From: Clytia hemisphaerica
Taxonomy: Eukaryota > Cnidaria > Hydrozoa > Leptothecata > Clytiidae
Assembly (NCBI GenBank): GCA_902728285.1
Contig: CACVBU010000805.1
Coordinates: forward strand, 97,364-161,363
DNA: 64,000 nt
Direction of reading: 5' to 3'
This document shows, piece after piece, positions 2,190 to 38,205 of the stretch; position 1 is the stretch's first letter, and each line of letters opens with the position of its first letter. Both the position numbers and the translations under genes were made by a program. The notes beneath the pieces were generated by a model. That model was not told where the DNA came from and did no database searches. It saw nothing but the letters and a program-made list of their open reading frames with translations.

Positions 2190-2195
2190 TAAGCC
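2187..2195. other. Left attachment junction (core TAAG)
   Basis: The sequence is cct-TAAG-cc. Left of the core is target sequence; right of it (gccatttgattg) is the element's left end, which recurs exactly at 20330. The core is shared by target (cctTAAGgta), element ends (cagTAAGcca) and both hybrid junctions. Confidence 0.75.
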
Positions 2196-2249
2196 ATTTG
2201 ATTGTTTTCTATTCCCTGCGCGATTAGCACGCAAATTCATAAAAAGGAA

Positions 2250-3085
2250 GTTATTACATGTGGAGGGAATTCAATACAAGTTTTTACATTTTATTTAAGC
2301 TTCTATTGCTTATTACAAGTCTAATCTTGCATTAATGTTATGGACGTTACATGGACGTTAAAATGACGTCATTTTTAATACATCTTTGAAATCTTTCGAA
2401 TGCTGAATCAGCAAACTTTCTTATAACATGTGGAGGCAATTTTACTACAAGTCTTTACACTTTAATCACCCTTCTACGGCTTATTACAACTTTTTTTGAA
2501 ATCTTTCGAATGCTGAATCAGCAAAATTTCTTATTACATGTGGAGACAATTTTATTACAAGTTTTAACATTTCAATCACCCTTCTACGTCTTATTACAAC
2601 TATTTTTGAAATCTCTCGAATGCCGAGTCAGCATAATTTCTTATTACATGCGGAGGCATCTTTACTACAAGCTTTGACATTTTAATCACCTTTCTACAGC
2701 TTATTACAACTATTTTTGAAATCTCTCGAATGCTGAATCAGCAAAATTTCTTATTACATGTGGAGGCAATTTTATTACAAGTTTTGACATTTTAATCACC
2801 CTTCTACGGCTTATTACAAGTCTAATGTTGCATTAATGTTATGGACATTCGATATCTTTCGAATGCCGTGTCAGCATAATTTCTTATTACATGCGGAGGC
2901 ATTTTTACTACAAGTTTTGACATTTTAATCACCCTTCTACAGCTTATTACAACTATTTTTGAAATCTTTCGAATGCTGAATCAGCAAAATTTCTTATTAC
3001 ATAATGAGGCAATTTTATTACAAGTTTTGACATTTTGATCACCCTTCTACGGGTTATTACAACTATTCTTGAATTCTTTCGAATG
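2250..3085. repeat. Type-1 satellite array, copy 1
   Basis: Monomers of about 110 bp, with longer variants of about 132 bp, are marked by 'ttcttattacatgtggagg', 'cacccttctacggcttatt' and 'tgctgaatcagcaaa'. The longer variants insert a block containing 'gttgcattaatgttatgg'. The array is about 0.84 kb here but about 3.1 kb in copy 2, so it has contracted or expanded since the tandem formed. No coding content. Confidence 0.9.
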
Positions 3086-6000
3086 CTGCATCATCAAAAA
3101 TCATCATCTTATCTTTGATCTGTAATAAGGTGTAGAAGAATGAAGAATGGGTACAAAGCTGTAATAAGAATTGCCTGATTTGTAATAAGAAATTTTTGCT
3201 GAATCATCAAAAATCATCATCTTATCTTTGATCTGTAATAAGGTGTAGAAGAATGAAGAAGGGGTACAAAGCTGTAATAAGAATTGCCTGATTTGTAATA
3301 AGAAATTTTTGCTGAGTCATTAAAAATCGTCATCTTATCTCAGATGTGTAATAAGGTGTAGAAGAAGGAAAAAGGGGTACAAAGCTGTAATAAGAATTGC
3401 CTGATTTGTAATAAGAAATTTTTGCTGAATCATCAAAAATCATCATCTTATCTTTGATCTGTAATAAGGTGTAGAAGAATGAAGAAGGGGTACAAAGCTG
3501 TAATAAGAATTGCCTGATTTGTAATAAGAAATTTTTGCTGAGTCATTAAAAATCGTCATCTTATCTCAGATGTGTAATAAGGTGTAGAAGAATGAAGAAG
3601 GGGTACAAAGCTGTAATAAGAATTGCCTGATTTGTAATAAGAAATTTTTGCTGAGTCATTAAAAATCGTCATCTTATCTCAGATGTGTAATAAGGTGTAG
3701 AAGAATGAAGAAGGGGTACAAAGCTGCAATAAGAATTGCCTGATTTGTAATAAGAAATATTTGTTGAGTCATTAAAAATCATCATCTTATCTCAGATCTG
3801 TAATAAGGTGTAGAAGAATGAAGAAGGGGTACAAAGTTGTAATAAGAATTGCCTGATTTTTTATAAGAAATTTTTGCTGAGTCATCAAAAATCGTCATCT
3901 TATCTCAGATCTGTAATAAGGTGTAGAAGAAGGAAAAAGGGGTACAAAGCTGTAATAAGAATTGCCTGATTTGTAATAAGAAATTTTTGCTGAGTCATTA
4001 AAAATCGTCATCTTATCTCAGATGTGTAATAAGGTGTAGAAGAAGGAAAAAGGGGTACAAAGCTGTAATAAGAATTGCCTGATTTGTAATGAGAAATTTT
4101 TGCTGAATCATCAAAAATCATCATCTTATCTCAGATCTTTAATAAGGTGTAGAAGAATGAAGAAGGGATACAAAGTTGTAATAAGAATTGCCTGATTTGT
4201 AATAAGAAATTTTTGCTGAGTCATCAAAAATCGTCATCTTATCTCAGATGTGTAAAAAGGTGTAGAAGAAGGAAAAAGGGGTACAAAGTTGTAATAAGAA
4301 TTGCCTGATTTGTAATAAGAAATATTTGCTGAGTCTTCAAAAATCATCATCTTATCTCAGATCTGTAATAAGGTGTAGAAGAATGAAGAAGGGGTACAAA
4401 GTTGTAATAAGAATTGCCTGATTTGTAATAAGAAATTTTTGCTGAGACATCAAAAATCGTCATCTTATCTCAGATGTGTAATAAGATGTAGAAGAAGGAA
4501 AAAGGGGTACAAAGCTGTAATAAGAATTGCCTGATTTGTAATAAGAAATATTTGCTGAGTCTTCAAAAATCATCATCTTATCTCAGATCTGTAATAAGGT
4601 GTAGAAGAATGAAGAAGGGGTACAAAGCTGTAATAAGAATTGCCTGATTTGTAATAAGAAATTTTTGCTGAGTCATTAAAATCGTCATCTTATCTCAGAT
4701 GTGTAATAAGGTGTAGAAGAAGGAAAAAGGGGTACAAAGCTGTAATAAGAATTGCCTGATTTGTAATAAGAAATTTTTGCTGAATCATCAAAAATCATCA
4801 TCTTATCTTTGATCTGTAATAAGGTGTAGAAGAATGAAGAAGGGGTACAAAGCTGTAATAAGAATTGCCTGATTTGTAATAAGAAATTTTTGCTGAATCA
4901 TCAAAAATCATCATCTTATCTTTGATCTGTAATAAGGTGTAGAAGAATGAAGAAGGGGTACAAAGCTGTAATAAGAATTGCCTGATTTGTAATAAGAAAT
5001 TTTTGCTGAGTCATTAAAAATCGTCATCTTATCTCAGATGTGAAATAAGGTGTAGAAGAATGAAGAAGGGGTACAAAGCTGTAATAAGAATTGCCTGATT
5101 TGTAATAAGAAATATTTGTTGAGTCATTAAAAAATCATCATCTTATCTCAGATCTGTAATAAGGTGTAGAAGAATGAAGAAGGGGTACAAAGTTGTAATA
5201 AGAATTGCCTGATTTGTTATAAGAAATTTTTGCTGAGTCATCAAAAATCGTCATCTTATCTCAGATCTGTAATAAGGTGTAGAAGAAGGAAAAAGGGGTA
5301 CAAAGCTGTAATAAGAATTGCCTGATTTGTAATAAGAAATTTTTGCTGAGTCATTAAAAATCGTCATCTTATCTCAGATGTGTAATAAGGTGTAGAAGAA
5401 GGAAAAAGGGGTACAAAGCTGTAATAAGAATTGCCTGATTTGTAATGAGAAATTTTTGCTGAATCATCAAAAATCATCATCTTATCTCAGATCTTTAATA
5501 AGGTGTAGAAGAATGAAGAAGGATACAAAGTTGTAATAAGAATTGCCTGATTTGTAATAAGAAATTTTTGCTGAGTCATCAAAAATCGTCATCTTATCTC
5601 AGATGTGTAAAAAGGTGTAGAAAAGGAAAAAGGGGTACAAAGTTGTAATAAGAATTGCCTGATTTGTAATAAGAAATATTTGCTGAGTCTTCAAAAATCA
5701 TCATCTTATCTCAGATCTGTAATAAGGTGTAGAAGAATGAAGAAGGGGTACAAAGTTGTAATAAGAATTGCCTGATTTGTAATAAGAAATTTTTGCTGAG
5801 ACATCAAAAATCGTCATCTTATCTCAGATGTGTAATAAGGTGTAGAAGAAGGAAAAGGGGTACAAAAGCTGTAATAAGAATTGCCTGATTTGTAATAAGA
5901 AATATTTGCTGAGTCTTCAAAAATCATCATCTTATCTCAGATCTGTAATAAGGTGTAGAAGAATGAAGAAGGGGTACAAAGCTGTAATAAGAATTGCCTG

Positions 6001-7080
6001 ATTTGTAATAAGAAATTTTTGCTGAGTCATTAAAAATCGTCATCTTATCTCAGATGTGTAATAAGGTGTAGAAGAAGGAAAAAGGGGTACAAAGCTGTAA
6101 TAAGAATTGCCTGATTTGTAATAAGAATTTTTGCTGAATCATCAAAAATCATCATCTTTATCTTTGATCTGTAATAAGGTGTAGAAGAATGAAGAAGGGG
6201 TACAAAGCTGTAATAGAATTGCCTGATTTGTAATAAGAAATTTTTGCTGAGTCATTAAAAATCGTCATCTTATCTCAGATGTGTAATAAGGTGTAGAAGA
6301 ATGAAGAAGGGGTACAAAGCTGTAATAAGAATTGCTGATTTGTAATAAGAAATTTTTGCTGAGTCATTAAAAATCGTCATCTTATCTCAGATCTGTAATA
6401 AGGTGTAGAAGAATGAAGAAGGGGTACAAAGCTGTAATAAGAATTGCCTGATTTGTAATAAGAAATATTTGTTGAGTCATTAAAAATCATCATCTTATCT
6501 CAGATCTGTAATAAGGTGTAGAAGAATGAAGAAGGGGTACAAAGTTGTAATAAGAATTGCCTGATTTGTTATAAGAAATTTTTGCTGAGTCATCAAAAAT
6601 CGTCATCTTATCTCATATCTGTAATAAGGTGTAGAAGAAGGAAAAAGGGGTACAAAGCTGTAATAAGAATTGCCTGATTTGTAATAAGAAATTTTTGCTG
6701 AGTCATTAAAAATCGTCATCTTATCTCAGATGTGTAATAAGGTGTAGAAGAAGGAAAAAGGGGTACAAAGCTGTAATAAGAATTGCCTGATTTGTAATGA
6801 GAAATTTTTGCTGAGTCATCAAAAATCGTCATCTTATCTCAGATTTTTAATAAGGTGTAGAAGAAGGAAAAAGGGGTACAAAGCTGAAATAAGAATTGCC
6901 TGATTTGTTATAAGAAATTTTTGCTGAGTCATCAAAAATCGTCATCTTATCTCAGATGTGTAATAAGGTGTAGAAGAAGGAAAAAGGGGTACAAAGCTGT
7001 AATAAGAATTGCCTGATTTGTAATAAGAAATTTTTGCTGAATCATCAAAAATCATCATCTTATCCCAGATCTGTAATAAG
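3086..7080. repeat. Type-2 satellite array (113-bp monomer), copy 1
   Basis: About 35 monomers with a period of 113 bp, each with 'gtaataaggtgtagaagaa', 'gaattgcctgatttgtaat' and 'tgctgagtcatcaaaaatc'. Two sub-variants alternate (tttgatctg versus cagatgtg; gaatgaagaag versus gaaggaaaaag). A rare variant 'gatttgtaatgag' recurs at 4081, 5437 and 6789, giving a higher-order period of about 1,355 bp (12 monomers). Read in reverse complement the monomer aligns with type 1, so the two arrays are inverted relatives meeting near 3085. Confidence 0.92.
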
Positions 7081-7104
7081 AGTAGTAGATTTATGACAGA
7101 GCTG

Positions 7105-7245
7105 GCACATACAGAAAGTGAGTGACACTACAGAAAGTGAGTGACACTACAGAAAGTGAGTGACACTACAGAAAGTGAGTGACACTACAGAAAGTGAGTA
7201 CACGACAGAACGTGATTGACACCTTACAGAAAGTGAGTGTCACCA
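7105..7245. repeat. 19-bp direct repeats, left arm copy 1
   Basis: The unit 'acagaaagtgagtgacact' is present about five times perfectly, followed by degenerate units (cgacagaacgtgattgacac). It lies at the outer end of the arm beside the satellite and is mirrored at 16315-16430, 28065-28180 and 34175-34300 with differing copy number. Confidence 0.9.
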
Positions 7246-8512
7246 CAGAATAAGTTTCAAGTGGTAAATAATTTTCTGGTTATCTACAAAAGCATTAAAG
7301 TCATTTTCCCTATCGGAAACACCCGAAAACACCGGAATTTGACCAATGAGTGTTACTAAAATTGCAACACATGGGTCAAATTCAACACCTCCAGCACTAC
7401 CTAAAGAATAAGTTCCAAGTGGTAAATAATTTTCTGGTTATCTATTAAAGCACTGAGCTTCTTAATCTAATTATTCATAAATCATAAAAACTGAGTACAT
7501 TGTTGACAATAACACCATCACCATGTGAAAGATTTGATATTTGATAGGTAATTTTATCAGTAACAGGAAACATATGCGAGATAGCAACAATTCTTAATAA
7601 AGAAAATAACCAAGTCTTATTTCTAATTGTAAAAGATGAATTTGGAAACGTTCGTTACACTACTAACCCGATCACCATTCCTCACGGACATCTCCATTCC
7701 TCACTATTCCTCTTCTATTCCTCACCATTCCTCAGCGTTCCTCGAACGTTCCTCAGGAATGGATATTTCAAAACTTTGTTTTAGCATTCCTCATCTATTC
7801 CTCGAACGTTCCTGAGGAATGGACATTTATGACGTTATTTTTAAGCGTTCCTCACTCGTTCCTCGAACGTTCCTCAGGAATGGAGATATTTCAACTTCAT
7901 TTCAGCATTCCTCATCTATTCCTCGAACGTTCCTCAGGAATGGACATTTATGACGTTATTTTTAAGCGTTCCTCACTCTTCTCGAACGTTCGGGGAGAAT
8001 GGCTATTTCAACTTCATTTCAGCATTCCTCCTATTATTCTCGAACGTTCCTCAGGAATGGACATTTCTCATTTCTACGTAATTTTAAGGTGTTCCTCACT
8101 TGTTCCTCGAACGTTCCTCAGGAATGGACATTTATGACGTTATTTTTAAGCGTTCCTCACTTATTCCTCGAACGTTCCTCAGGAATGGACATTTCTGACG
8201 TAATTTTAAGGTGTTCCTCACTCGTTCCTCAGGAATGGACATTTCTGACGTTATTTTTAAGCTTTCATCACTAGTTCCTCGAATGTTCCTCAGGAATGGA
8301 CTTTCATGACGTTATTTTTAAGCGTTCCTCAGGAATGGAGATATTTCTTTTTCACCTTATTGTTTCTCATGGAGTCATCTCTATTCCTCGAATGTTCCTC
8401 AGGAATGGACATTCGTGTAAAGTGTTCATCACTTTTACCTATTTTATTATGCCCAATACAATTTTTGGTTAATTCTTTTGCATTGCAATTATTCAAATTT
8501 TAATTAAAATTA

Positions 8513-10140
8513 GACACGTGACACGTCAAAATAAATCATCGTATTTGCAGCCGAAAAAGTCTTTTATTTCAAACCCGGGGGGAGGGGCACTGGGTCTGCG
8601 GACTGACGGTATGTGCGGGCCAAAAATTGGCGTTTAAAATTGCACCCTTACAGTGCAGCAAAAATCAGTGAAAATCATACCCTTAAGGTGCATTTTCCCT
8701 CAAATTTTCGTTACCGTGGCTTTCGTGGCTTCACATTACCGAAGTTTGCTGGGGAGCCATCAGTCTATGCTTCAGAAGAGGACAAAATATGGCTGCTCTC
8801 CATAAAACCAACATTGGGATTTTCATGGCTGGATGATCATTGTTGTTTATAAATTTAAGACGCTGGGCCTGTTCACACTGAATTTGAAAATTTTATATGA
8901 TTTTCCGATAAAATCGCTCGATTTTAAATCAGAGTCTAAAAAAGTTCTTAACATATTCTTATGTTCACCATTTTGTGAGTATTTTTGTCCATTTTTGTAT
9001 GAATTCGGATCTTTTTGAGTCCCCTAAAAGCCTTAAAATGTTCTTAACTTGTTGTTTTTAAAATTTTGACCATCGAAGCCTTTTTATACAGTAGTTCGTT
9101 GTTATTTAAAGACGTGTATGATAATAACATTTTTTCTGTACAATTTTTTTCAAAGATACATGTTCATTTTCATTTTATTTTCGAAAGATTTAATTTGGAT
9201 TTTATAATAATTTTGTAACCCTTTAGTTTACTCCCCGTTTTGTAACCTTGTCATGCCACCTTTTCTCCTTCGCTCAGAGCGAATTGTATACAATTAACAA
9301 CAAGTGATATTTTTATTGACCTACTTGGTTATGCATTTAACACATATATAATTGATATCTACGTAAGCGTGACCATTAAACAATCATTCAGAACACAAAT
9401 AGTGACGATCTATTAAAATTCGTCGTTTGTTTCTTATAAAAAACACGTTTAGAAACCAAAATTTCATGCTCAAATACAAATACACTTCTGTGCCAGACCC
9501 ACTGAGACCTCATCCCTACTGGAAAATTTTGCACTCCAAAACCATCCCCACTGGATTTTTGTTCCACCTTGGAACAATAAAATTCCCATCCCCATTGAGG
9601 AAAAAGTTCCACCGGGGCTGTGAAACATCTATCTCATCAAAAAATTGAGTAATTTGGCTGAGAACATTGTTGTATGCTTATTAATAATGGTTCTTATAGA
9701 TAAAGATGCGTTTTTTGAGCCGAAAAATCTTTTTTGCTAAAATCTGCTTCAGCCATCTTTTACCTACGATAATACCCTCGTGCAAAAAATCAGAAAGAAC
9801 TAATGATCCAATCGGGCTCACATTCGAGGGTCTATAGTCATGCACCTTTGTGCCAAAATCAGAAACTTTGAATGAGCCAAACTTGAGGAAAGTTGATAAC
9901 AAACGGACGCACGAACATGGGTTAATTTATAGGACCTCCATCGGGGTAGGTCCAAAAGACCTGTAGGGATTTCCAAGGAACTTAAAACACAGGTTGAAAA
10001 AAGCCCTAGTTGTTTGCGAGCTTCCGTTACTAATGTGTTGTTCTAAAGGACAAAAAGCCTTCTCTTTCTCTAGAAGCAGAGGCTAAAATTTTAAGCGACT
10101 TAAAAGTTTTTGATATTGAATATCTTATCCATGAAAATGT
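8513..10140. other. Interior of the foldback transposon, no gene seen
   Basis: The interior is a patchwork. 9010-9100 shares 'ccttaaaatgttcttaact' and flanking sequence with 50250-50320. 9485-9620 belongs to the 'agacccactg...ccccactgg' MITE family also found at 50650-50945 and 54945-55250. The rest (8513-9000, 9100-9480, 9630-10140) shows no recognisable coding region. Confidence 0.6.
9485..9625. repeat. MITE fragment, 'cagacccact' family
   Basis: The sequence 'tgccagacccactgagacc' followed by repeated 'ccccactgga' or 'ccactggatt' motifs matches the style of 50650-50945 and 54945-55250. Nested inside the foldback transposon, it is a probable fragment of a short interspersed repeat. Confidence 0.55.
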
Positions 10141-10707
10141 ATTATAAACAGCTCAGAAAATGTCTTTTCCTGAGGAACACTTTTAAATAACGTCATGAAA
10201 GCCCATTCTTCAGGAACGTGTGAGGAATAGATGAGGAACGATAAAGTGAAGAAAAAATATCTCCATTCCTGAGGAACGTTCGAGGAACGAGTGAGGAACG
10301 CTTAAAAATAACGTCATAAATGTCCATTCCTGAGGAACGAGTGAGGAACAAGTGAGGAACACCTTAAAATTACGTCAGAAATGTCCATTCCTGAGGAACG
10401 TTCGAGGAACGAGTGAGGAACGCTTAAAAATAACGTCATAAATGTCCATTCCTGAGGAACGTTCGAGGAATAGATGAGGAATGCTGAAATGAAGTTGAAA
10501 TATCTCCATTCCTGAGGAACGTTCGAGGAACGAGTGAGGAACGCTTAAAAATAACGTCATAAATGTCCATTCCTCAGGAACGTTCGAGGAATAGATGAGG
10601 AATGCTAAAACAAAGTTTTGAAATATCCATTCCTGAGGAACGTTCGAGGAACGCTGAGGAATGGTGAGGAATGGAGATGTCCGTGAGGAATGGTGATCGG
10701 GTTAGTA

Positions 10708-10857
10708 GTGTTAGTAGTGTTCGTTTTTTGAAAGTCTTCAAGGCATTCGATTGAAAATTCTTTAAGCGTTTATTAAGCTTGTACATTTTTTGAGGTAAGC
10801 AACACTGCTGCACATGTAAAAATCGAGTCAGGTATAAACAAGTCGAGGTTGATGAAT
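10708..10857 (-). pseudogene. ORF-A, copy 1 left arm, split by transposon
   Basis: This is the N-terminal part of ORF-A (see 33626-33946), reading leftwards; its C-terminal part lies at about 7474-7656, on the other side of the foldback insertion. The protein is unrecognised, basic at the N-terminus (MYKLNKRLKNF region). Confidence 0.5.
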
Positions 10858-10868
10858 TAAGCAAATCA

Positions 10869-11250
10869 AAGTGAAATTCTCAAATCGGAAGAACAAAAGA
10901 ACATTAAATTTTGACGATGAAAACTACTTTAATAAAGACAAGGAGGATTTTTTTATCATAATTTAACGACCCAACATTTGAAGTCCAAAGAAAATTCGTG
11001 AAGGATGCTCAGAGGAGTACCCAGAGTCAATTAAATTACCACTATTGTCTAGCCACTGGAAACAAGTGTTCATAGAAGATGGTTTTTCGAACTTCACGAA
11101 AGTTGTTTAATGAACGGGAATCAAACGATATATTTGCATAGTACGCTGGATGGATGGAGAAATTGAGTATATAAAGTTGGAACTCTTAGCTGATGATCGA
11201 TGGATTAAAAATCTAAGATTACAAAAAAATTTTAGATTGTTAAATAGGGA
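10869..11250 (+). pseudogene. ORF-B, copy 1 left arm (unknown, broken)
   Basis: The reading frame runs through motifs such as FDDENYFNKDKEDFF and SSHWKQVFIEDGF but contains two stops between them and an extra T at about 11108. It diverges in transcription from the C2H2/acidic ORF further in. No family was recognised. It is a protein-like but decayed frame; see 33257-33605 for the cleaner copy. Confidence 0.45.
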
Positions 11251-11503
11251 ATGAATGAAATAGTTTATTGGAGAAGAACAAAACAACATTGGTTACAAAA
11301 TTGAACGTGGATACACCAAATAAACGATGTGTAAACGAATGTATTTAAGTTTTTACTATAATCCAAAAACCCTATGTAACACTACTTTGAACTAAAATCG
11401 TAGAGGCAATAAAAAGAACTAAGAAAACAAAATATTTATTGCTTGATGGTAATATATTTCTAGCTTATAAAACAATTATGTTATCATTTACAAGGATCAA
11501 ATC

Positions 11504-11935
11504 TCATTCTTTCATTGCATCATTTGGAATTTGTTGATTAATTAGAAAGCGACGTTTTTCAACAGCGAAATCTAATGCTTCTTCAAAATCCATGTCTTCC
11601 TCATCTCTAACCCTTTGTAAAGTTTCCATCACAGATTTATGTGTTTTATCCTTTTTCATTGCTCGAAGAAAAAGGATTTTGTATTTATAAATCTCATGAA
11701 TTGATAAGCCAGTCTCTTGACATTCGTTCAACATGCTCTCCCAAATATTAAATGTTTCTTTAACACCTTGAGATTCTTCACTATCACTGGACATGGGCTC
11801 GCTGTCTGTAAAGTCTTCATCAGACTCTTCATCTTCTTCTTCTTCTTCAGATTCTTCAGGGTGGGCCTTTGCAACATGTCGATTATAATTGCTTTTATTG
11901 GAAAAGGTCTTTTCGCAATCGTCGCATTCATACAT
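11504..11935 (-). CDS. C2H2 zinc-finger / acidic ORF, copy 1 left arm
   Basis: Starting at the ATG at 11935, the protein is about 143 aa (the frame stays open a little further upstream without an ATG). Residues 1-22 form one C2H2 finger (CDDC, 12 residues, H, 4 residues, H). A strongly acidic Glu/Asp/Ser run (about residues 24-55) follows, then a helical charged C-terminus with 'FNIWESMLNE' and 'EEALDFAVEKRRF'. The layout of one finger, an acidic linker and a Trp-containing helical tail resembles small ORFs I associate with polinton-like or adintovirus-like elements in invertebrate genomes; that is recollection, not a search result. It is present in four copies; this one is intact. Confidence 0.7.
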   Translation of the reverse strand: MYECDDCEKTFSNKSNYNRHVAKAHPEESEEEEEDEESDEDFTDSEPMSSDSEESQGVKETFNIWESMLNECQETGLSIHEIYKYKILFLRAMKKDKTHKSVMETLQRVRDEEDMDFEEALDFAVEKRRFLINQQIPNDAMKE

Positions 11936-12419
11936 CGTGTTTCTTCCGCTGGTTTTAAACTTATTTGAAGAAGTAGCATCCTTACTTACGAATTTATATG
12001 CAAAACACAAGAGTAATCCGATATCGGGTTTCTCTTTAGGAGCCTGGTTTCTCTCTAAGATCTTTGTTTCTTCCAGATTACCTAGTCTTTATTGGTCCAC
12101 GTTCGTTTCTTGGTCCGGGACTAACTTGAGAAATCTAGTCTTACTTGATCCTCTTTTGGGACTCCAGTAGTTCTTTACCTAGTCCTCCAACCAATTGTTA
12201 TTGGTGGCTGCAAAAGGTAATCCCTTTTTGTGTCGACATAGTCCCTTTTAGACTTCTATTAGGACTACCCGATTCCTGTTTCGGACTACTTAGTTTTGAT
12301 GAATCGTTTTCGGAATTAGCTAAATCCTGTTTTGGATACCCACTTTAAGCTTCATGAGTATCTATCCTCTTTTGTATCTACATATTCCTAGCTTAATTAT
12401 CCTTAGGATTAACGGGATT

Positions 12420-12765
12420 ACCTAATCCTTCTTTGGAACTAACCAATCCTTATCTGGGATTGCCTAATCCCTCTTTGGGATCAACTAATCCTCATTTCAG
12501 ATTACCCGATCCCTCTTTAGGATCAACTAATCCTCATTTAGGATTACCTAATCCCTCTTTGGGATCAACTAATCCTCATGTGGGATTACCTAATCCCTCT
12601 CTGGGATCAACTAATCCTCATTTGGGATGCCTAATGCCTCTTTAGGATCAACTACTCCTCATTTGGGATTACCTAATCCCTCTTTGGGATCAACTAATCT
12701 TCATTTGGGATTACCTAGTCCCTCTTTGGGACCAACTAATCCTCATTTGGGGACTAGCTTGAGAA
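12420..12765. repeat. 42-bp minisatellite, copy 1 left arm
   Basis: About eight units of 'ttacctaatccctctttg' plus 'ggatcaactaatcctcat', period 42 bp, grading outward into looser 'aatcctnnttt' motifs (12020-12900). Because 42 is a multiple of three, one frame stays open as a 14-residue repeat (GLPNPSLGSTNPHL). I regard this as incidental. Confidence 0.85.
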
Positions 12766-13035
12766 ATCTAGTCTTACATGATCCTCTTTTGGGACTATGT
12801 AGTTCTGCACCTAGTCTCTGTTAGTCCCTTTTTTGAGACCAACCAATCGGAACTGCATGATTCTAGTTAATCCCTCTTTTAGGATTACTTAATCACTAGT
12901 TGGATCCTTTCTTCCAATTCATATAAAAGGCTCATGGTATGTTGTTGTTGTTGTTTTCTTTTTCTTTTCTTTTTTGTTTTTTATTTACGCATTTTTTGTT
13001 TGGTGTGGGATTTTATTATTTTGTTAGTTACACCC

Positions 13036-13062
13036 GTAAGTCCCGCCAAAGGCGGGGCTTAC
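13036..13062. repeat. GC-rich hairpin, copy 1 left arm
   Basis: The sequence 'gtaagtcccgcc' then aaa then 'ggcggggcttac' forms a 12-bp stem with a 3-nt loop (one G-T pair), followed by gccccgggcccc. It is the most GC-rich spot in the element and lies near the inner end of each arm. Confidence 0.8.
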
Positions 13063-13109
13063 GCCCCGGGCCCCGTCAGAAGTGCAGTGAAGGTCAAATT
13101 TAGGGATAA

Positions 13110-13401: not shown

Positions 13402-13495
13402 TGTTTAAATCATAGTTTAATTTCTTAGCAATCGTTACGACTTTTACTGCATGAACGTGTTAGCTTCAAAGATGCTTATCAATGACTTGAAACGT
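13132..13495. other. Unique spacer at the centre of the inverted repeat, copy 1
   Basis: About 365 bp not repeated in the arms; most of it is the ATPase fragment. The arms become complementary at 'aaatataaatccgatca' (left) and 'tgatcagatttatattt' (right). Confidence 0.8.
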
Positions 13496-15753: not shown

Positions 15754-15759
15754 TTTGAT

Positions 15760-16430: not shown

Positions 16431-16453
16431 AGCTCTGTCATAAATCTACTACT

Positions 16454-28031: not shown

Positions 28032-28406
28032 AGTAGTAGATTTATGACAGAGCTGGCACATACAGAAAGTGAGTGACACTACAGAAAGTGAGTGACACTA
28101 CAGAAAGTGAGTGACACTACAGAAAGTGAGTACACGACAGAACGTGATTGACACCTTACAGAAAGTGAGTGTCACCACAGAATAAGTTTCAAGTGGTAAA
28201 TAATTTTCTGGTTATCTACAAAAGCATTAAAGTCATTTTCCCTATCGGAAACACCCGAAAACACCGGAATTTGACCAATGAGTGTTACTAAAATTGCAAC
28301 ACATGGGTCAAATTCAACACCTCCAGCACTACCTAAAGAATAAGTTCCAAGTGGTAAATAATTTTCTGGTTATCTATTAAAGCACTGAGCTTCTTAATCT
28401 AATTAT

Positions 28407-28730
28407 TCATAAATCATAAAAACTGAGTACATTGTTGACAATAACACCATCACCATGTGAAAGATTTGATATTTGATAGGTAATTTTATCAGTAACAGGA
28501 AACATATGCGAGATAGCAACAATTCTTAATAAAGAAAATAACCAAGTCTTATTTCTAATTGTAAAAGATGAATTTGGAAACGTTCGTTTTTTGAAAGTCT
28601 TCAAGGCATTCGATTGAAAATTCTTTAAGCGTTTATTAAGCTTGTACATTTTTTGAGGTAAGCAACACTGCTGCACATGTAAAAATCGAGTCAGGTATAA
28701 TAAACAAGTCGAGGTTGATGAATTAAGCAA
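28407..28730 (-). CDS. ORF-A, copy 2 left arm (unknown)
   Basis: About 107 codons, the same protein as 15760-16083 and 33626-33946 but with a 3-base gain near the N-terminus (ggtataataaaca), which keeps the frame. Conservation of the open frame across arms mildly supports coding. Confidence 0.35.
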   Translation of the reverse strand: MLNSSTSTCLLYLTRFLHVQQCCLPQKMYKLNKRLKNFQSNALKTFKKRTFPNSSFTIRNKTWLFSLLRIVAISHMFPVTDKITYQISNLSHGDGVIVNNVLSFYDL

Positions 28731-28739
28731 ATCAAAGTG

Positions 28740-29099
28740 AAATTCTCAAATCGGAAGAACAAAAGAACATTAAATTTTGACGATGAAAACTACTTTAATA
28801 AAGACAAGGAGGATTTTTTTATCATAATTTAACGACCCAACATTTGAAGTCCAAAGAAAATTCGTGAAGGATGCTCAGAGGAGTACCCAGAGTCAATTAA
28901 ATTACCACTATTGTCTAGCCACTGGAAACAAGTGTTCATAGAAGATGGTTTTTCGAACTTCACGAAAGTTGTTAATGAACGGGAATCAAACGATATATTT
29001 GCAATAGTACGCTGGATGGATGGAGAAATTGAGTATATAAAGTTGGAACTCTTAGCTGATGATCGATGGATTAAAAATCTAAGATTACAAAAATTTTAG
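28740..29099 (+). pseudogene. ORF-B, copy 2 left arm (unknown, in-frame stops)
   Basis: Plus frame with stops at about 28829 and 28841, then open from 'EYPESIKLPLLSSHWKQ' to the stop at 29097. Either a decayed gene or two exons around a very short intron; I see no convincing splice sites. Confidence 0.45.
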
Positions 29100-29366
29100 A
29101 TTGTTAAATAGGGAATGAATGAAATAGTTTATTGAGAAGAAACAAAACAACATTGGTTACAAAATTGAACGTGGATACACCAAATAAAAGATGTGTAAAC
29201 GAATGTATTTAAGTTATTACTATAATCCAAAAACCCTATGTAACACTACTTTGAACTAAAATCGTAGAGGCAATAAAAAGAACTAAGAAAACAAAAATAT
29301 TTATTGCTTGATGGTAATATATTTCTAGCTTATAAAAACAATGTTATCATTTACAAGGATCAAATC

Positions 29367-29795
29367 TCATTCTTTCATTGCATCATTTGGAATTTGTCGA
29401 TTAATTAGAAAGCGACGTTTTTCAACAGCGAAATCTAATGCTTCTTCAAAATCCATGTCTTCCTCATCTCTAACCCTTTGTAAAGTTTCCATCACAGATT
29501 TATGTGTTTTATCCTTTTTCATTGCTCGAAGAAAAAGGATTTTGTATTTATAAATCTCATGAATTGATAAGCCAGTCTCTTGACATTCGTTCAACATGCT
29601 CTCCCAAATATTAAATGTTTCTTTAACACCTTGAGATTCTTCACTATCACTGGACATGGGCTCGCTGTCTGTAAAGTCTTCATCAGACTCTTCTTCTTCT
29701 TCTTCTTCAGATTCTTCAGGGTGGGCCTTTGCAACATGTCGATTATAATTGCTTTTATTGGAAAAGGTCTTTTCGCAATCGTCGCATTCATACAT
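29367..29795 (-). CDS. C2H2 zinc-finger / acidic ORF, copy 2 left arm
   Basis: Intact. It differs from the copy 1 protein by one residue fewer in the acidic run (a 3-base loss in the gaagaa tract) and a Gln-to-Arg change near the C-terminus. In-frame indels and few substitutions suggest it was coding until recently. Confidence 0.7.
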   Translation of the reverse strand: MYECDDCEKTFSNKSNYNRHVAKAHPEESEEEEEEESDEDFTDSEPMSSDSEESQGVKETFNIWESMLNECQETGLSIHEIYKYKILFLRAMKKDKTHKSVMETLQRVRDEEDMDFEEALDFAVEKRRFLINRQIPNDAMKE

Positions 29796-30279
29796 CGTGT
29801 TTCTTCCGCTGGTTTTAAACTTATTTGAAGAAGTAGCATCCTTACTTACGAATTTATATGCAAAACACAAGAGTAATCCGATATCGGGTTTCTCTTTAGG
29901 AGCCTGGTTTCTCTCTAAGATCTTTGTTTCTTCCAGATTACCTAGTCTTTATTGGTCCACGTTCGTTTCTTGGTCCGGGACTAACTTGAGAAATCTAGTC
30001 TTACTTGATCCTCTTTTGGGACTCCAGTAGTTCTTTACCTAGTCCTCCAACCAATTGTTATTGGTGGCTGCAAAAGGTAATCCCTTTTTGTGTCGACATA
30101 GTCCCTTTTAGACTTCTATTAGGACTACCCGATTCCTGTTTCGGACTACTTAGTTTTGATGAATCGTTTTCGGAATTAGCTAAATCCTGTTTTGGATACC
30201 CACTTTAAGCTTCATGAGTATCTAATCCTCTTTTGTATCTACATATTCCTAGCTTAATTATCCTTAGGATTAACGGGAT

Positions 30280-30625
30280 TACCTAATCCTTCTTTGGAAC
30301 TAACCAATCCTTATCTGGGATTGCCTAATCCCTCTTTGGGATCAACTAATCCTCATTTGAGATTACCCGATCCCTCTTTAGGATCAACTAATCCTCATTT
30401 AGGATTACCTAATCCCTCTTTGGGATCAACTAATCCTCATGTGGGATTACCTAATCCCTCTCTGGGATCAACTAATCCTCATTTGGGATTGCCTAATGCC
30501 TCTTTAGGATCAACTACTCCTCATTTGGGATTACCTAATCCCTCTTTGGGATCAACTAATCTTCATTTGGGATTACCTAGTCCCTCTTTGGGACCAACTA
30601 ATCCTCATTTGGGGACTAGCTTGAG
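30280..30625. repeat. 42-bp minisatellite, copy 2 left arm
   Basis: About eight 42-bp units as at 12420-12765, with the full unit retained near 30490. Confidence 0.85.
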
Positions 30626-30896
30626 AAATCTAGTCTTACATGATCCTCTTTTGGGACTATGTAGTTCTGCACCTAGTCTCTGTTAGTCCCTTTTTTGAGA
30701 CCAACCAATCGGAACTGCATGATTCTAGTTAATCCCTCTTTTAGGATTACTTAATCACTAGTTGGATCCTTTCTTCCAATTCATATAAAAGGCTCATGGT
30801 ATGTTGTTGTTGTTGTTTTCTTTTTCTTTTCTTTTTTGTTTTTTATTTACGCATTTTTTGTTTGGTGTGGGATTTTATTATTTTGTTAGTTACACC

Positions 30897-30923
30897 CGTA
30901 AGTCCCGCCAAAGGCGGGGCTTA
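30897..30923. repeat. GC-rich hairpin, copy 2 left arm
   Basis: Same 12-bp stem as 13036-13062 (gtaagtcccgcc/ggcggggcttac). The inverted partner lies near 31426-31452, with loop ttt in place of aaa, so both strands of the arm pair preserve the stem. Confidence 0.8.
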
Positions 30924-30971
30924 CGCCCCGGGCCCCGTCAGAAGTGCAGTGAAGGTCAAATTTAGGGATAA

Positions 30972-31263
30972 ATATAAATCCGATCACTTTGTGATAAACA
31001 CCTTTGCAGATTGTTTTTCGATTTGTCGAACATTTCATCAAGATCGGCGGGCAAACCAATTACATATTCTACGGTTGGAAAGTAGGACTTCAACCTTTCC
31101 AAAAGTTCTTCCTGATGCTTGGTGATAACCATACTATTCTATCAAACTCTTTATCGAAAACATCATTTCTGTATCTGATAAGATTTTGGGCAAAAACAGA
31201 TTTCTCTGCACCTCTTAAACAGCTAACGAGTATACTAAAAGGATGCTTTAGCTTTCCATCCAT
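30972..31263 (-). pseudogene. P-loop packaging-type ATPase fragment, copy 2 (broken)
   Basis: Identical layout and lesions to 13110-13401: ATG at 31263, altered Walker A (CLRGAEKS), stop after 57 codons, continuation in another frame to the arm boundary. The lesions predate the tandem duplication. Confidence 0.55.
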
Positions 31264-31719
31264 TGTTTAAATCATAGTTTAATTTCTTAGCAATCGTTAC
31301 GACTTTTACTGCATGAACGTGTTAGCTTCAAAGATGCTTATCAATGACTTGAAACGTCAAAGTTGATCAGATTTATATTTATCCCTAAATTTGACCTTCA
31401 CTGCACTCCTGACGGGGCCCGGGGCGTAAGCCCCGCCTTTGGCGGGACTTACGGGTGTAACTAACAAAATAATAAAATCCCACACCAAACAAAAATGCGT
31501 AAAAAAAAAACAAAAAAGAAAAGAAAAAGAAAACAACAACAACAACATACCATGAGCCTTTTATATGAATTGGAAGAAAGGATCCAACTAGTGATTAAGT
31601 AATCCTAAAAGAGGGATTAACTAGAATCATGCAGTTCCGATTGGTTGGTCTCAAAAAAGGGACTAACAAAGACTAGGTGCAGAACTACATAGTCCCAAAA
31701 GAGGATCATGTAAGACTAG

Positions 31720-32075
31720 ATTTCTCAAGCTAGTCCCCAAATGAGGATTAGTTGGTCCCAAAGAGGGACTAGGTAATCCCAAATGAAGATTAGTTGATCC
31801 CAAAGAGGGATTAGGTAATCCCAAATGAGGAGTAGTTGATCCTAAAGAGGCATTAGGCAATCCCAAATGAGGATTAGTTGATCCCAGAGAGGGATTAGGT
31901 AATCCCACATGAGGATTAGTTGATCCCAAAGAGGGATTAGGTAATCCTAAATGAGGATTAGTTGATCCTAAAGAGGGATCGGGTAATCTGAAATGAGGAT
32001 TAGTTGATCCCAAAGAGGGATTAGGCAATCCCAGATAAGGATTGGTTAGTTCCAAAGAAGGATTAGGTAATCCCG
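31720..32075. repeat. 42-bp minisatellite, copy 2 right arm
   Basis: Inverted 42-bp units, nearly identical to 13860-14215. Confidence 0.85.
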
Positions 32076-32553
32076 TTAATCCTAAGGATAATTAAGCTAG
32101 GAATATGTAGATACAAAAGAGGATTAGATACTCATGAAGCTTAAAGTGGGTATCCAAAACAGGATTTAGCTAATTCCGAAAACGATTCATCAAAACTAAG
32201 TAGTCCGAAACAGGAATCGGGTAGTCCTAATAGAAGTCTAAAAGGGACTATGTCGACACAAAAAGGGATTACCTTTTGCAGCCACCAATAACAATTGGTT
32301 GGAGGACTAGGTAAAGAACTACTGGAGTCCCAAAAGAGGATCAAGTAAGACTAGATTTCTCAAGTTAGTCCCGGACCAAGAAACGAACGTGGACCAATAA
32401 AGACTAGGTAATCTGGAAGAAACAAAGATCTTAGAGAGAAACCAGGCTCCTAAAGAGAAACCCGATATCGGATTACTCTTGTGTTTTGCATATAAATTCG
32501 TAAGTAAGGATGCTACTTCTTCAAATAAGTTTAAAACCAGCGGAAGAAACACG

Positions 32554-32985
32554 ATGTATGAATGCGACGATTGCGAAAAGACCTTTTCCAATAAAAGCAA
32601 TTATAATCGACATGTTGCAAAGGCCCACCCTGAAGAATCTGAAGAAGAAGAAGAAGATGAAGAGTCTGATGAAGACTTTACAGACAGCGAGCCCATGTCC
32701 AGTGATAGTGAAGAATCTCAAGGTGTTAAAGAAACATTTAATATTTGGGAGAGCATGTTGAACGAATGTCAAGAGACTGGCTTATCAATTCATGAGATTT
32801 ATAAATACAAAATCCTTTTTCTTCGAGCAATGAAAAAGGATAAAACACATAAATCTGTGATGGAAACTTTACAAAGGGTTAGAGATGAGGAAGACATGGA
32901 TTTTGAAGAAGCATTAGATTTCGCTGTTGAAAAACGTCGCTTTCTAATTAATCAACAAATTCCAAATGATGCAATGAAAGAATGA
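32554..32985 (+). CDS. C2H2 zinc-finger / acidic ORF, copy 2 right arm
   Basis: Intact, 143 aa from the ATG at 32554; same sequence as the 11504-11935 protein. One C2H2 finger, acidic linker, helical tail. Confidence 0.7.
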   Translation: MYECDDCEKTFSNKSNYNRHVAKAHPEESEEEEEDEESDEDFTDSEPMSSDSEESQGVKETFNIWESMLNECQETGLSIHEIYKYKILFLRAMKKDKTHKSVMETLQRVRDEEDMDFEEALDFAVEKRRFLINQQIPNDAMKE

Positions 32986-33256
32986 GATTTGATCCTTGTA
33001 AATGATAACATAATTGTTTTTATAAGCTAGAAATATATTACCATCAAGCAATAAATATTTTTGTTTTCTTAGTTCTTTTTATTGCCTCTACGATTTTAGT
33101 TCAAAGTAGTGTTACATAGGGTTTTTGGATTATAGTAATAACTTAAATACATTCGTTTACACATCTTTTATTTGGTGTATCCACGTTCAATTTTGTAACC
33201 AATGTTGTTTTGTTTCTTCTCCAATAAACTATTTCATTCATTCCCTATTTAACAAT

Positions 33257-33605
33257 CTAAAATTTTTGTAATCTTAGATTTTTAATCCATCGATCATCAG
33301 CTAAGAGTTCCAACTTTATATACTCAATTTCTCCATCCATCCAGCGTACTATTGCAAATATATCGTTTGATTCCCGTTCATTAACAACTTTCGTGAAGTT
33401 CGAAAAACCATCTTCTATGAACACTTGTTTCCAGTGGCTAGACAATAGTGGTAATTTAATTGACTCTGGGTACTCCTCTGAGCATCCTTCACGAATTTTC
33501 TTTGGACTTCAAATGTTGGGTCGTTAAATTATGATAAAAAAATCCTCCTTGTCTTTATTAAAGTAGTTTTCATCGTCAAAATTTAATGTTCTTTTGTTCT
33601 TCCGA
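33257..33605 (-). pseudogene. ORF-B, copy 2 right arm (unknown, broken)
   Basis: The open C-terminal part (33257-33445, SSHWKQVFIEDGF to NLRLQKF) is preceded in the same frame by a stretch with two stops and then an open N-terminal part (FDDENYFNKDKEDFF). Same state as in both left arms, so the stops are ancestral to the element. Confidence 0.45.
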
Positions 33606-33625
33606 TTTGAGAATTTCACTTTGAT

Positions 33626-33946
33626 TTGCTTAATTCATCAACCTCGACTTGTTTATACCTGACTCGATTTTTACATGTGCAGCAGTGTTGCTTACCTCAA
33701 AAAATGTACAAGCTTAATAAACGCTTAAAGAATTTTCAATCGAATGCCTTGAAGACTTTCAAAAAACGAACGTTTCCAAATTCATCTTTTACAATTAGAA
33801 ATAAGACTTGGTTATTTTCTTTATTAAGAATTGTTGCTATCTCGCATATGTTTCCTGTTACTGATAAAATTACCTATCAAATATCAAATCTTTCACATGG
33901 TGATGGTGTTATTGTCAACAATGTACTCAGTTTTTATGATTTATGA
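33626..33946 (+). CDS. ORF-A, copy 2 right arm (unknown)
   Basis: The cleanest version of ORF-A, from the basic MYKLNKRLKN region through WLFSLLRIVAI to a stop after SFYDL. No recognised domain. Confidence 0.35.
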   Translation: MLNSSTSTCLYLTRFLHVQQCCLPQKMYKLNKRLKNFQSNALKTFKKRTFPNSSFTIRNKTWLFSLLRIVAISHMFPVTDKITYQISNLSHGDGVIVNNVLSFYDL

Positions 33947-34321
33947 ATAATTAGATTAAGAAGCTCAGTGCTTTAATAGATAACCAGAAAATTATTTACC
34001 ACTTGGAACTTATTCTTTAGGTAGTGCTGGAGGTGTTGAATTTGACCCATGTGTTGCAATTTTAGTAACACTCATTGGTCAAATTCCGGTGTTTTCGGGT
34101 GTTTCCGATAGGGAAAATGACTTTAATGCTTTTGTAGATAACCAGAAAATTATTTACCACTTGAAACTTATTCTGTGGTGACACTCACTTTCTGTAAGGT
34201 GTCAATCACGTTCTGTCGTGTACTCACTTTCTGTAGTGTCACTCACTTTCTGTAGTGTCACTCACTTTCTGTAGTGTCACTCACTTTCTGTATGTGCCAG
34301 CTCTGTCATAAATCTACTACT

Positions 34322-34545
34322 AATAAGGTGTAGAAGAATGAAGAAGGGGTACAAAGCTGTAATAAGAATTGCCTGATTTGTAATAAGAAATATTTGCTGA
34401 GTCATCAAAAATCATCATCTTATCTCAGATCTGTAATAAGGTGTAGAAGAATGAAGAAGGGGTACAAAGTTGTAATAAGAATTGCCTGATTTGTTATAAG
34501 AAATTTTTGCTGAGTCATCAAAAATCGTCATCTTATCTTCGATTG
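34322..34545. repeat. Type-2 satellite stub, copy 2
   Basis: About two monomers, equivalent to 16454-16680. Confidence 0.85.
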
Positions 34546-34935
34546 TAACAAGACTATTTTCGAACTTCATATGAAAACTTCATATGAAAACCTGTAACAA
34601 GGTGTATTAGGTAGTATCAAAGTGTATCAAGATGTAACACATTGACTAAAACCTGTAACAGGAATGTTGATATCCCACATTTTTGATCTTGATATTAATT
34701 AGTAGAAACCTAGACTTGAATAAAATTGACATTCACATTTCTTGAAATTGTAAAGCTTCTTATCGTAATTGGTATTATATATATATATATTCCACAAGCT
34801 AATGAACTAAGTAAATTTTCTCTACAACATATTTTTGAATATAAATATTTAGTTGTTAGGTATTAATACAATACAAACCCAAATTTCTCAAATGCAAAGG
34901 CATATAGATAAACTCGACAAAGAATTCTCATCATA
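34546..34935. other. Spacer, copy 2
   Basis: Nearly identical to 16681-17066; AT-rich with a (ta)n run at about 34777; no gene called. Confidence 0.45.
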
Positions 34936-35298
34936 TCATGCCTTGAAATTTTTGATAAATGTGTCTATTATTTTATCATCTTTGATACTGATCAAGTTTT
35001 TGCTTTCCTCTTTCTTTTTAATTTTGCTATTTTTAGGACTTTCAACTCTCAGCTTTTCTTGAAATTGTTCTGTTTGGGAAGATTCAGATTTGCTCTCATC
35101 TCCAGATAGCATGCACATGCCTTCCCTCTTGGAGCGCTTCAAAGTTGGTTTAGTTTGTTTCTTTGTTCTCTTTGGAGGTTGACCAGAATTGAAAGCCTCA
35201 AAATCAAACTCCTCAGATTCTTCAGAAGATGACATCAATTTGAATTCGTAAGAAAGTCTTTTAGGTCCCGTGTAATTGTTGATCTTATTTTTTGACAT
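34936..35298 (-). CDS. Small charged nuclear-type ORF, copy 2 (120 aa)
   Basis: Same 120-aa product as 17067-17429 with no change in the protein: acidic Ser/Glu stretch, basic NLS-like clusters, Lys/Glu tail. Downstream of the recombinase on the same strand. Confidence 0.5.
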   Translation of the reverse strand: MSKNKINNYTGPKRLSYEFKLMSSSEESEEFDFEAFNSGQPPKRTKKQTKPTLKRSKREGMCMLSGDESKSESSQTEQFQEKLRVESPKNSKIKKKEESKNLISIKDDKIIDTFIKNFKA

Positions 35299-35422
35299 TT
35301 TTCAGTTATCTTAAAAATTGAAACAAGATTATTTAGAAAGCTGCTCAAGATAAAAGTAAAATTGAATAGAAATGAATGAAATATCATAATACATTTTAAC
35401 ACATTTGATATAATATTTACAA

Positions 35423-37664
35423 TTATTTATTATCATTAAAAAGCTTTCTAAAGCAAGCACTATCAGCTCTAACCCTCAAAGAATCTCTACTTCTAGTTTC
35501 ATGAAACTTTAAGTTAGGGTCTTTCAAAATTATAGCCCATGATTTACGACCGTATTTTTCGATGCCCTGCTTTAAACAATGATCTTCTGCACTAGTGAAT
35601 TTCACATTTTTAGGTTGTTTTCTGTTAGTTTGTTGTCGAGCAGCCTCCTTTTTGATAACAATATTGTCATTTGGTATATTTAAGATGCTGACTTCCTGTA
35701 CATCAGCCACGGCTGGAGTGTTATTAGTAGGAAAAGTTTCTGTGATGACCATATCTGTCGATTCGTTTAGTGATTCACTCACTGGTTGGTATGGATCGGT
35801 ATCAACTTCCATATGGCTTGATGAGCAAGAAGCACTCGAAATCGAATTTTGAGCGTTAGGTTTCATACCTTCTATTATGCGTCGACTATGACTCAATACG
35901 TCGTTATCGAAAGAACAAGATATATTATTAAACATTTCAACAAGGTTTTTGTTGCCGTCAGACCTTGCGTCCTTTGTCATCTTTTCCATACATTTACGTC
36001 CCTCTACTGCAACGATCCTCGATTGAGTCTTCTTGTAGTGTATTTTAGCTACAGTAGAGCTGTGCTTTTGATCTTCGGTGATATAATGTTGCTCTTCCAA
36101 GTTAAGCCTTTCGCTGCTTTCCGTTTCGACTATTTGCCTATAACGAGTTGGGTTGATGTGCTTGCCAATGGCTTCATGAACGAGGATCGTCATAGCTGAA
36201 GTCAAGGATTGAAATTGAGTTCCATTTGTTGAGAGTAGAAGGAAGTCGCATTGTGGATTGAGACGAGGTCGGATGTACTCTAAGTACAAATCAATAATCT
36301 CTATCGTATCGTCTGATAATATCAAAGTGTCGAAGATATACCTTAAAACAATAAACATGCATTGTTATTATATTATACTATTAATAAAACAGTTTAAATA
36401 TCATAACAAAATAATAATTATCATATGATAGATGTGATTTAAATGAGAATTAAACTTTGATTTAAAGATACAGTAAGTGATATAAAATGTATGGTATCAT
36501 TTATTAGATCAAAAATCATCGTTTCTTAAAATTAGGATATCAAGCAGAAAGGGTAGACTTTGTCTTAATCTAATACAAATTCTTTAGAACCATAATCATA
36601 CCTTGATGCTGTTTTGAACTCTCTTTGATCGACAAATCCACCATTATTTCTTGCTTTGTTAACCATTTCAACCGTGAGAAACTGGTACGTCATAGGTCTT
36701 GAGCATTTAACTCGGAGGAAAAGCAAAGTTGTGATGAATCGAATACAGAAGACCAATTCACCTTTCGTTAGAAATCTTGCTTCGTGGCTTTCAGAACACT
36801 TTTCAATTATCTTTTTGAACTGTTTCATGTGGAAAGGTATGACCACTTCCATTTCCTCCAACGTTGCCCAGCTGTTTCTGGCGATAAGGGTTTCCAAGTC
36901 GAGGTTTCGATTACAGTCTAAGTTCTTTTTCTTTCGAAGGTTTTCATTTGCTCGCCTGAGATAAACTTCCACAACTGTGAAGCAACGAAGAGTATTGTCA
37001 GAAACTCCATTTGCTTTTCGAAAATCAATGAAATCTGTAATACACTTTACGTAGTTTACAGCACCGGAGGGACCAACTTTCCATTCTTCTTCTATCACTT
37101 TTAGAAACGATATGAAAATTGAAGCAGATGACAAACAACAGTCAACAAATTCGTTAGTTAGGTCAATGTCATTTTCATTGTTACCCATGGCATGCATAAA
37201 ATATTTCATAGCTCGTTTGCCAATCTGTCTAGCCTCCTTATTGCTTTTTCCACCTCCACAAGATGTTCCAAGCCAAGTTAAAAGTCTCTTCCAATTCCTT
37301 CATCCAATGAAAAAGACGGCTTACCGGCAGTAGATGCTCTCTTTGGTGCAACAGGAAAGTCAGTCATGTCCTCACGTTTAACTTCAGGCTGCTCGTCAAA
37401 GTAATAGTACCAAGGATGTTTAGTGTTGATATGCTTTCTCAACCCTCTGCAACTTTTGAAGTCACCATGTAAACATAGCTTTATAGGACACGTGTAAAGG
37501 TCCCGCTGGTTTGGTCGGAGTTTTAGCGTTCTTTTACCATGTGCAGCTCCCACTAAGCTCTTCCAGTTGACCTGGAGTCGCCTTGGGCGACGCATTATGA
37601 ATGACCTGATTTGAGAAGAGCCTTTTATGTTTTTTCTTGTCAAATCTTTACAAGGGGGTTTCAT
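35423..37664 (-). pseudogene. Tyrosine recombinase, copy 2 (single-base frameshift)
   Basis: Exon 1 starts at the ATG at 37664 (MKPPCKD) and runs to 36602; exon 2 is 36341-35423. Domains are as in copy 1: C2H2 finger, core-binding region, R and K, intron, HINPTRYRQ, KIHYKK, Myb/SANT-like tail. A one-base loss in an A run near 37280 (gttaaaagtc versus gttaaaaagtc in copy 1) breaks the frame between the finger and the core-binding domain. Exon 2 is unchanged. Because each copy carries a different single lesion, the ancestor was intact very recently, or one lesion is an assembly error. Confidence 0.8.
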
Positions 37665-37679
37665 TTTACTTTTTATTTG

Positions 37680-38198
37680 TTCGAATTAAAGAATAGAATT
37701 GTTCAATTGACCCCCGTTAGCTAAACGACCAATATATTCCCACCGTTAGCAAACTTGTTCTCCAATAGGGAGAGGAAAATCATACGTCTAGGGAATATAA
37801 AAACTTGACATTAGTCATTATTTCGTTCCCGCAATAGAAAGTTAATAAGGAACTCAATATTCTATTATTAAAAATACATTAGTGTACAAATTGTTCCTTG
37901 TTATAAAATTGAAGAAAGAACAAATTTGCTCCTTAGCGAAAGTATACATCTTATTCTTTTGTAAGAGAACAAATTATCTGTCAACACAAAAAGAACAAAT
38001 AATTCATCCTATAAAGGAACAAAGGAACAATTGAAACACAATTTTGAGATTGGAGTCTAAACCATTCCTTATTGAACAGTTTATTCCTTTATGAAAAACA
38101 ACACAGAACAAAGAGATCCTTAGGGATCAAAGAGTTCTTCAGATAAAGGTTCCTTGCGAGTTCCTTAAATACAAGAACAGACCAGAAATTAACTACAG
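37680..38198. promoter_or_regulatory. Right-terminal region, copy 2
   Basis: Equivalent to 19790-20329, with the same cluster of gaaca/tgttcc motifs and very few differences (for example cgttagctaaac versus cgtaagctaaac). Confidence 0.45.
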
Positions 38199-38205
38199 TA
38201 AGGTA
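38196..38205. other. Right attachment junction (cag-TAAG-gta)
   Basis: The element end (aactacag) and TAAG core are followed by target sequence ggtatatacgatgg. Joined conceptually with the left flank (cttcccTTAAG) this gives the CCTTAAGG palindrome seen intact at 1691-1698. Confidence 0.75.

Follow-up and report, generated by a model that had tools for sequence, protein, structure and literature searches.

The Cryptons first found in fungi carry direct repeats of 4 or 6 bp at their edges and are proposed to pass through a circular intermediate, a proposal made by analogy with prokaryotic elements; the animal groups CryptonA and CryptonI are described as having neither a C-terminal domain nor terminal repeats (Kojima and Jurka 2011, PMC3212892). 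In the Starships of fungi, captains with DUF3435 are accompanied by a cargo of accessory genes (PMC12134995). In Salmonella, SGI1, which integrates site-specifically, is documented to form tandem arrays (PMC2297512). Vertebrate Mavericks commonly end in the motif 5'-(AGT)2//(ACT)2-3' and have 6-bp target duplications (PMC8097293). We analyzed a stretch of 64,000 nucleotides from the hydrozoan Clytia hemisphaerica (the window; GenBank assembly GCA_902728285.1, contig CACVBU010000805.1, positions 97,364 to 161,363 of the forward strand), in which two large units lie head to tail. In the account that we favor and consider fairly probable, the units are copies of a Crypton-like element that uses a tyrosine recombinase and carries its own iteron-like satellites, and their doubling came about when a circle integrated at the resident copy.

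Results

Self-comparison of the window revealed two nearly identical units of about 18 kb in the same orientation, which meet head to tail at a single 4-base joint. The right part of unit 1 (10719-20333) matches unit 2 (28582-38202) at 99.5% in the same orientation, and the satellite halves of the units are also alike (2382-7089 versus 22797-27517, 93%). When the edges were read base by base, TAAG was found three times for the two units: at the edge between the left flank and unit 1 (2190-2193, ...CCCT-TAAG-CCATTTG), at the joint between the units (20330-20333, ...ACAG-TAAG-CCATTTG) and at the edge between unit 2 and the right flank (38199-38202, ...ACAG-TAAG-GTATATA). Self-comparison and these edges delimit the bodies of unit 1 (2194-20329) and unit 2 (20334-38198), both on the plus strand. 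An earlier sequence-only reading had described two direct units with a clean junction, outer boundaries at 2190 and 38202 and no terminal inverted repeats. Self-comparison and the edges confirm the units and their junction, and the boundaries are exact to the base; no terminal inverted repeats were detected at the unit ends, whose score of 6 lies within the shuffled range (mean 7, maximum 13). The layout also supports a head-to-tail doubling at a short core such as a circular intermediate would give.

A recombinase acting at a 4-bp core should leave n+1 cores for n tandem units, and the joint of the circle should recur as the joint between units; the middle core at 20330-20333 is the expected equivalent of that circular joint. 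Transposition of the unit by a DDE-type enzyme is not favored, given the lack of terminal inverted repeats and the single core common to both units at the joint. The main rival is a duplication by microhomology, in which unequal sister exchange or template switching between the flanking TAAG repeats doubled a resident element with no part played by a recombinase. The common TAAG is exactly the microhomology that such an event would use, and the doubling took in a passenger, the Maverick-type element described below; however, four bases are little homology for it, and breakpoints falling exactly on both edges of the element would be a coincidence unless an enzyme cuts there. We therefore consider this rival unlikely, though less so than any other that we weighed. 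It counts against a recombinase acting at a core that the short direct repeats at the element edges are known from this one locus, so that the unit edges have been seen once.

The flanks also bear on how the block arrived. A left arm at 1609-1649 (plus strand) and a right arm at 38209-38250 (minus strand) are inverted copies of each other, matching at 88% over 42 columns (E 9e-8). The two arms pair as one interrupted inverted repeat, and therefore the whole block of 36 kb entered a single site; read in this way, the flanks form a coherent empty site, which before the block entered would have been one small inverted repeat. The right flank starts with GTATATACGATGG, and at the end of the left flank lies a repeat of about 500 bp with TTAA on both sides. 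This repeat at the insertion site (1693-2192), with inverted ends of about 35 bp that are 94% alike and several TTCGCGAA-like motifs within it, is probably a TTAA-type miniature transposon.

An alignment of 9,562 bases shows 26 substitutions and 25 gap runs between the units. To the right of the foldback (see below), 8 substitutions in 3,631 bases separate them, which indicates that the units are recent. The 110-bp satellite array measures about 0.7 kb in unit 1 and about 3.0 kb in unit 2, and a 3-kb insertion at 7657-10711 is present in unit 1 alone, with the empty site near 28583 of unit 2. We asked whether an assembler had doubled one element, or had joined two haplotypes. Single-base indels make up many of the remaining differences and may be sequencing errors such as long reads yield; against this, the insertion is confined to one unit, the arrays are unequal in length, the units carry substitutions, and no flank sequence lies at the joint, whereas joined haplotypes would leave some. 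An assembly duplicate is therefore considered very improbable, the least credible of the alternatives considered here.

Both units contain, on the minus strand near their right ends, the gene of a putative tyrosine recombinase. In unit 1 (17554-19796) the frames 19796-18696 and 18495-17554 join at a plausible GT-AG intron (proposed at 18732-18473), so that two exons would encode a protein of 637 amino acids from the methionine at 19727; in unit 2 (35423-37595) the gene has lost one base near 37279 in comparison with unit 1, which shifts its frame. The protein is likely a tyrosine recombinase, a call of moderate strength. Its catalytic-type residues R300, K328, R400, H425 and Y434 follow one another in order at spacings of 28, 72, 25 and 9, which would fit the R-K-HxxR-H/W-Y catalytic layout of known tyrosine recombinases. 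When the whole protein was compared by hhalign with a profile built from five sequences (XerD, XerC, FimB, FimE and lambda Int), the best match placed residues 339-379 on XerD 180-222, in the register expected between K and HxxR. The C-terminus gave a Myb-like match (E 1.6e-4 and 3.5e-4).

A number of results weigh against this identification. The spacing pattern by itself arises in 13.7% of 20,000 shuffles, and the HxxR position reads TxxR, ending in R400. For the whole protein, hhalign gives a weak match (probability 0.26%, E 0.23); shuffles were run for the 200-amino-acid catalytic part, which when aligned separately falls in the wrong register, with a score reached by 7 of 100 of them. Searches of Pfam, NCBIfam and PHROGs yielded no recombinase profile; PHROGs matched two families whose function is unknown (best E 0.012), the catalytic part had its best PDB match in the exonuclease ERI1 (E 0.027), and the Myb-like match scores slightly below the curated Pfam cut-off. 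Single-sequence structure models were unusable, with a mean predicted local distance difference test (pLDDT) score of 33.9 and 36.4. PDB sequence searches otherwise returned weak Myb-type matches, and no relatives of either recombinase reading frame were found in viral contigs or prokaryote genome contigs.

These results invite the view that the protein is no recombinase and that the units are a large tandem repeat with incidental coding frames, a view that the missing profile match and the weak PDB match to an unrelated exonuclease would suit. Yet the 637-amino-acid frame is broken just by the plausible intron, the catalytic-type residues stand in order and accompany a weak in-register match, and the edges have a core and an empty site; we regard incidental frames as quite improbable. 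In the sequence-only reading, each unit ended beside a tyrosine recombinase gene: this position holds in both units, and the identity of the enzyme rests on the residue layout and the weak in-register alignment. A small charged open reading frame (ORF) of 121 amino acids at 34936-35301 (minus strand) of unit 2, which has the same translation in unit 1, has no Pfam match.

Each unit carries two tandem satellites. The 110-bp satellite, on the plus strand, spans 2385-3099 in unit 1, with 11 forward exact copies of a nonamer over 2187-3083, and 20525-23533 in unit 2, with 46 over 20334-23516. The 113-bp satellite, on the minus strand, spans 3084-7080 in unit 1 (about 35 copies; 90 reverse exact nonamers) and 23517-28017 in unit 2 (98 reverse exact nonamers), with four more to the right of the Maverick-type element in each unit. 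The two consensus monomers align in inverted orientation with a score of 139, where 300 shuffles reached 57 at most, and with a score of 30 in the same orientation. From this inverted homology it follows that they belong to one satellite family in opposite orientations, and the candidate of two independent satellites was rejected. In both satellites three nonamer sites, each CTTATTACA or one close variant of it, lie in the consensus monomer at spacings of 21 and 39 bp, and the consensus monomers agree at 25 of 27 site positions compared with 51 of 89 positions elsewhere (Fisher p 4.6e-4). The units contain 253 exact copies of the nonamer (57 forward, 196 reverse), whereas about 0.5 per strand would be expected by chance in 36 kb, and neither flank contains one (2.2 kb and 25.8 kb, 28 kb total). 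Variability is 0.019 in the sites and 0.046 elsewhere across the 73 monomers of the 113-bp array, and 0.012 and 0.087, respectively, across 27 anchor-picked monomers of the 110-bp array.

We read the arrays as two convergent arms of one site-bearing, iteron-like satellite family, which appears to be carried by the element itself. The nonamers may be bound by a protein of the element, for which the Myb-like domain is the first candidate. Several points count against a conserved binding site: in the 113-bp array the sites appear just modestly less variable than the remainder; in the 110-bp array, random pairs of blocks are equally conserved in 3.4% of cases; the conservation between satellites comes from a single pair of consensus monomers; and the Myb-like domain, with its Pfam score below the cut-off, is no more than a candidate for binding the nonamer. 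Rfam gave nothing above gathering scores. A DNA pattern of two neighboring sites led to 14 loci and a unit-end pattern to one; 13 of these loci had one exact nonamer, one had two and one had none, and tblastn with the recombinase gave no match there at E up to 1. With so few nonamers and no recombinase by tblastn, the pattern loci look like chance. A recombinase element carrying its own satellites was not found among the titles in a literature search whose coverage left out most subscription journals.

The long inverted repeat of the units is a different matter. In both units it starts with AGTAGTAGATTT and ends with AAATCTACTACT, and it is flanked by a 6-bp duplication, AATAAG, that lies inside the 113-bp satellite; this target falls within the reverse-strand nonamer TGTAATAAG. 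The foldback occupies 7081-16453 in unit 1, with AGTAGT...ACTACT ends, AATAAG on both sides and the later insertion in its left arm, and 28032-34321 in unit 2, with arms of about 3 kb, a spacer of 366 bp and the same duplication. Because of its (AGT)2...(ACT)2 ends and its perfect 6-bp target duplication, we assign the foldback to a Maverick/Polinton-type derivative, at best, and regard it as a passenger rather than the mobile unit. Each arm holds a C2H2 ORF (Pfam E 1.1e-6), which at 194 amino acids is the longest frame of the foldback in unit 2. No polymerase, integrase, capsid, protease or ATPase was detected by Pfam in the six foldback frames scanned, a subset of those listed. We take a short broken frame in the spacer to resemble a packaging ATPase, presumably, though no profile matched it; neither this fragment nor the C2H2 ORF had relatives in viral contigs.

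Satellite arrays and this unrelated, virus-like passenger make up much of the length of each unit. Without the Maverick, the unit measures about 8.8 kb in unit 1 and about 11.6 kb in unit 2, and coordinate arithmetic leaves about 4 kb of element DNA once the satellites are also removed; Cryptons are usually a few kb long, and the remainder fits that range. The sequence-only reading had inferred a giant element carrying two satellites, a long inverted repeat and several accessory ORFs. Self-comparison and a repeat search find both satellites and the inverted repeat in each unit; the satellites turn out to be one inverted family, and the idea of a giant element with gene cargo is rejected, as the Maverick ends of the inverted repeat, and the separate 6-bp duplication that flanks it, mark it as an independent, nested element. 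Accessory gene cargo was not found; besides this nested element, one small ORF of unknown function remains.

The substitutions in the foldback arms date its arrival. Pieces of the arms compared like to like across the units differ by 4 and 4 substitutions, whereas left and right pieces differ by 12 and 9 within the units and by 9 and 13 across them. The arms match better like to like than left to right, and the Maverick therefore preceded the doubling. The insertion found in unit 1 alone has 48-bp identical inverted ends and, read by eye, a probable 5-bp duplication, TTCGT. It is itself a 3-kb foldback, with 61/121-bp repeat arrays of TTCCTCA type in opposite orientation at its two ends, and thus another element with inverted satellites as its ends.

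Further repeats lie in the window to the right of the units. A composite satellite of 351 bp spans 38949-41018, followed by two minus-strand frames (42178-43402) with no convincing Pfam match, which we assume to resemble a ubiquitin-specific-peptidase-type domain. A 75/150-bp repeat (55880-56633) lies inside a minus-strand frame of 755 amino acids (55662-57929) for a low-complexity, Ser/Thr-rich repeat protein, and a 124-bp tandem repeat of about 5.8 copies occupies 62690-63405.

Discussion

Given the head-to-tail layout, the shared core and the empty site, the Maverick that is nested in each unit and older than the doubling, and the two inverted arrays of iteron-like satellites, the history that we favor would run as follows. 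The element would encode one tyrosine recombinase, with a zinc-finger-like N-terminus, a recombinase core and a C-terminal Myb-like domain, and would carry two convergent arrays of one satellite family with regularly spaced nonamers. The recombinase would cut and rejoin at the 4-bp TAAG core, and the element would be released or copied as a circle with the joint ...ACAG-TAAG-CCATTT...; we infer this circular form as the intermediate of the doubling. A first copy may have inserted into a TAAG where the small TTAA-flanked repeat has its right end, after which a Maverick/Polinton-type element would have landed in the satellite of this resident copy. Recently, a second circle, with the Maverick in it, would have inserted directly at the resident copy's edge and produced the order core-unit-core-unit-core, and the 3-kb insertion into unit 1 would have come after the doubling.

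A variant of this history replaces the two successive integrations with the one-step entry of a dimeric circle or a rolling-circle concatemer. The same layout of cores and units would result; on the other hand, the units differ in satellite length and by the substitutions counted above, differences that may have arisen later. We consider one-step entry improbable, and return to two successive integrations as the preferred course. With about the same slender probability, we speculate that the element is a eukaryotic plasmid-like episome that integrates by its tyrosine recombinase, the convergent nonamer satellites serving in replication or partition as a locus to which the Myb-like domain of the recombinase, or the product of the small second ORF, binds. 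If so, the satellites would serve a mobile element as functional organs and not be debris, and such an episome could seed satellite arrays in genomes.

Under the favored history of circle integration, a genomic tandem with a single common core displays the predicted joint of the circle and gives a sequence to seek. Paired opposite satellites with a fixed spacing of sites suggest that a satellite family may be kept as the binding array of a mobile element. The locus also indicates how an element of Maverick type can be taken along by another element as a passenger and share in its doubling.

The foldback resembles Mavericks/Polintons in its (AGT)2...(ACT)2 ends, 6-bp target duplication and terminal inverted repeats (PMC8097293), and differs from them in being just 6.3 kb long in unit 2, with 3-kb arms that hold C2H2 ORFs and a 366-bp spacer. 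Like Starships, the unit exceeds 15 kb in total length, has direct repeats at its edges and bears its putative tyrosine recombinase near one end; unlike theirs, its apparent cargo is a nested transposon and satellites (PMC12134995). DUF3435 was not among the Pfam matches with E up to 10, a range in which the HMMER filters drop most matches above about 0.1. SGI1, a bacterial island that integrates site-specifically, likewise stands in head-to-tail copies at a single site, a likeness of layout (PMC2297512). The animal Cryptons (PMC3212892) differ more specifically: the unit has a C-terminal Myb-like match and a 4-bp core direct repeat, which sets it apart from CryptonA and CryptonI, and it also has an intron, is present in tandem and carries large iteron-like satellites in inverted orientation; its putative recombinase, furthermore, matches no library profile. 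The unit nevertheless resembles Cryptons in having a recombinase as its sole likely enzyme and no terminal inverted repeats, and the fungal type in particular in having short direct repeats as its edge core and, as we propose, a circular intermediate (PMC3212892). On these characters we provisionally file it as a novel form of Crypton-like element.

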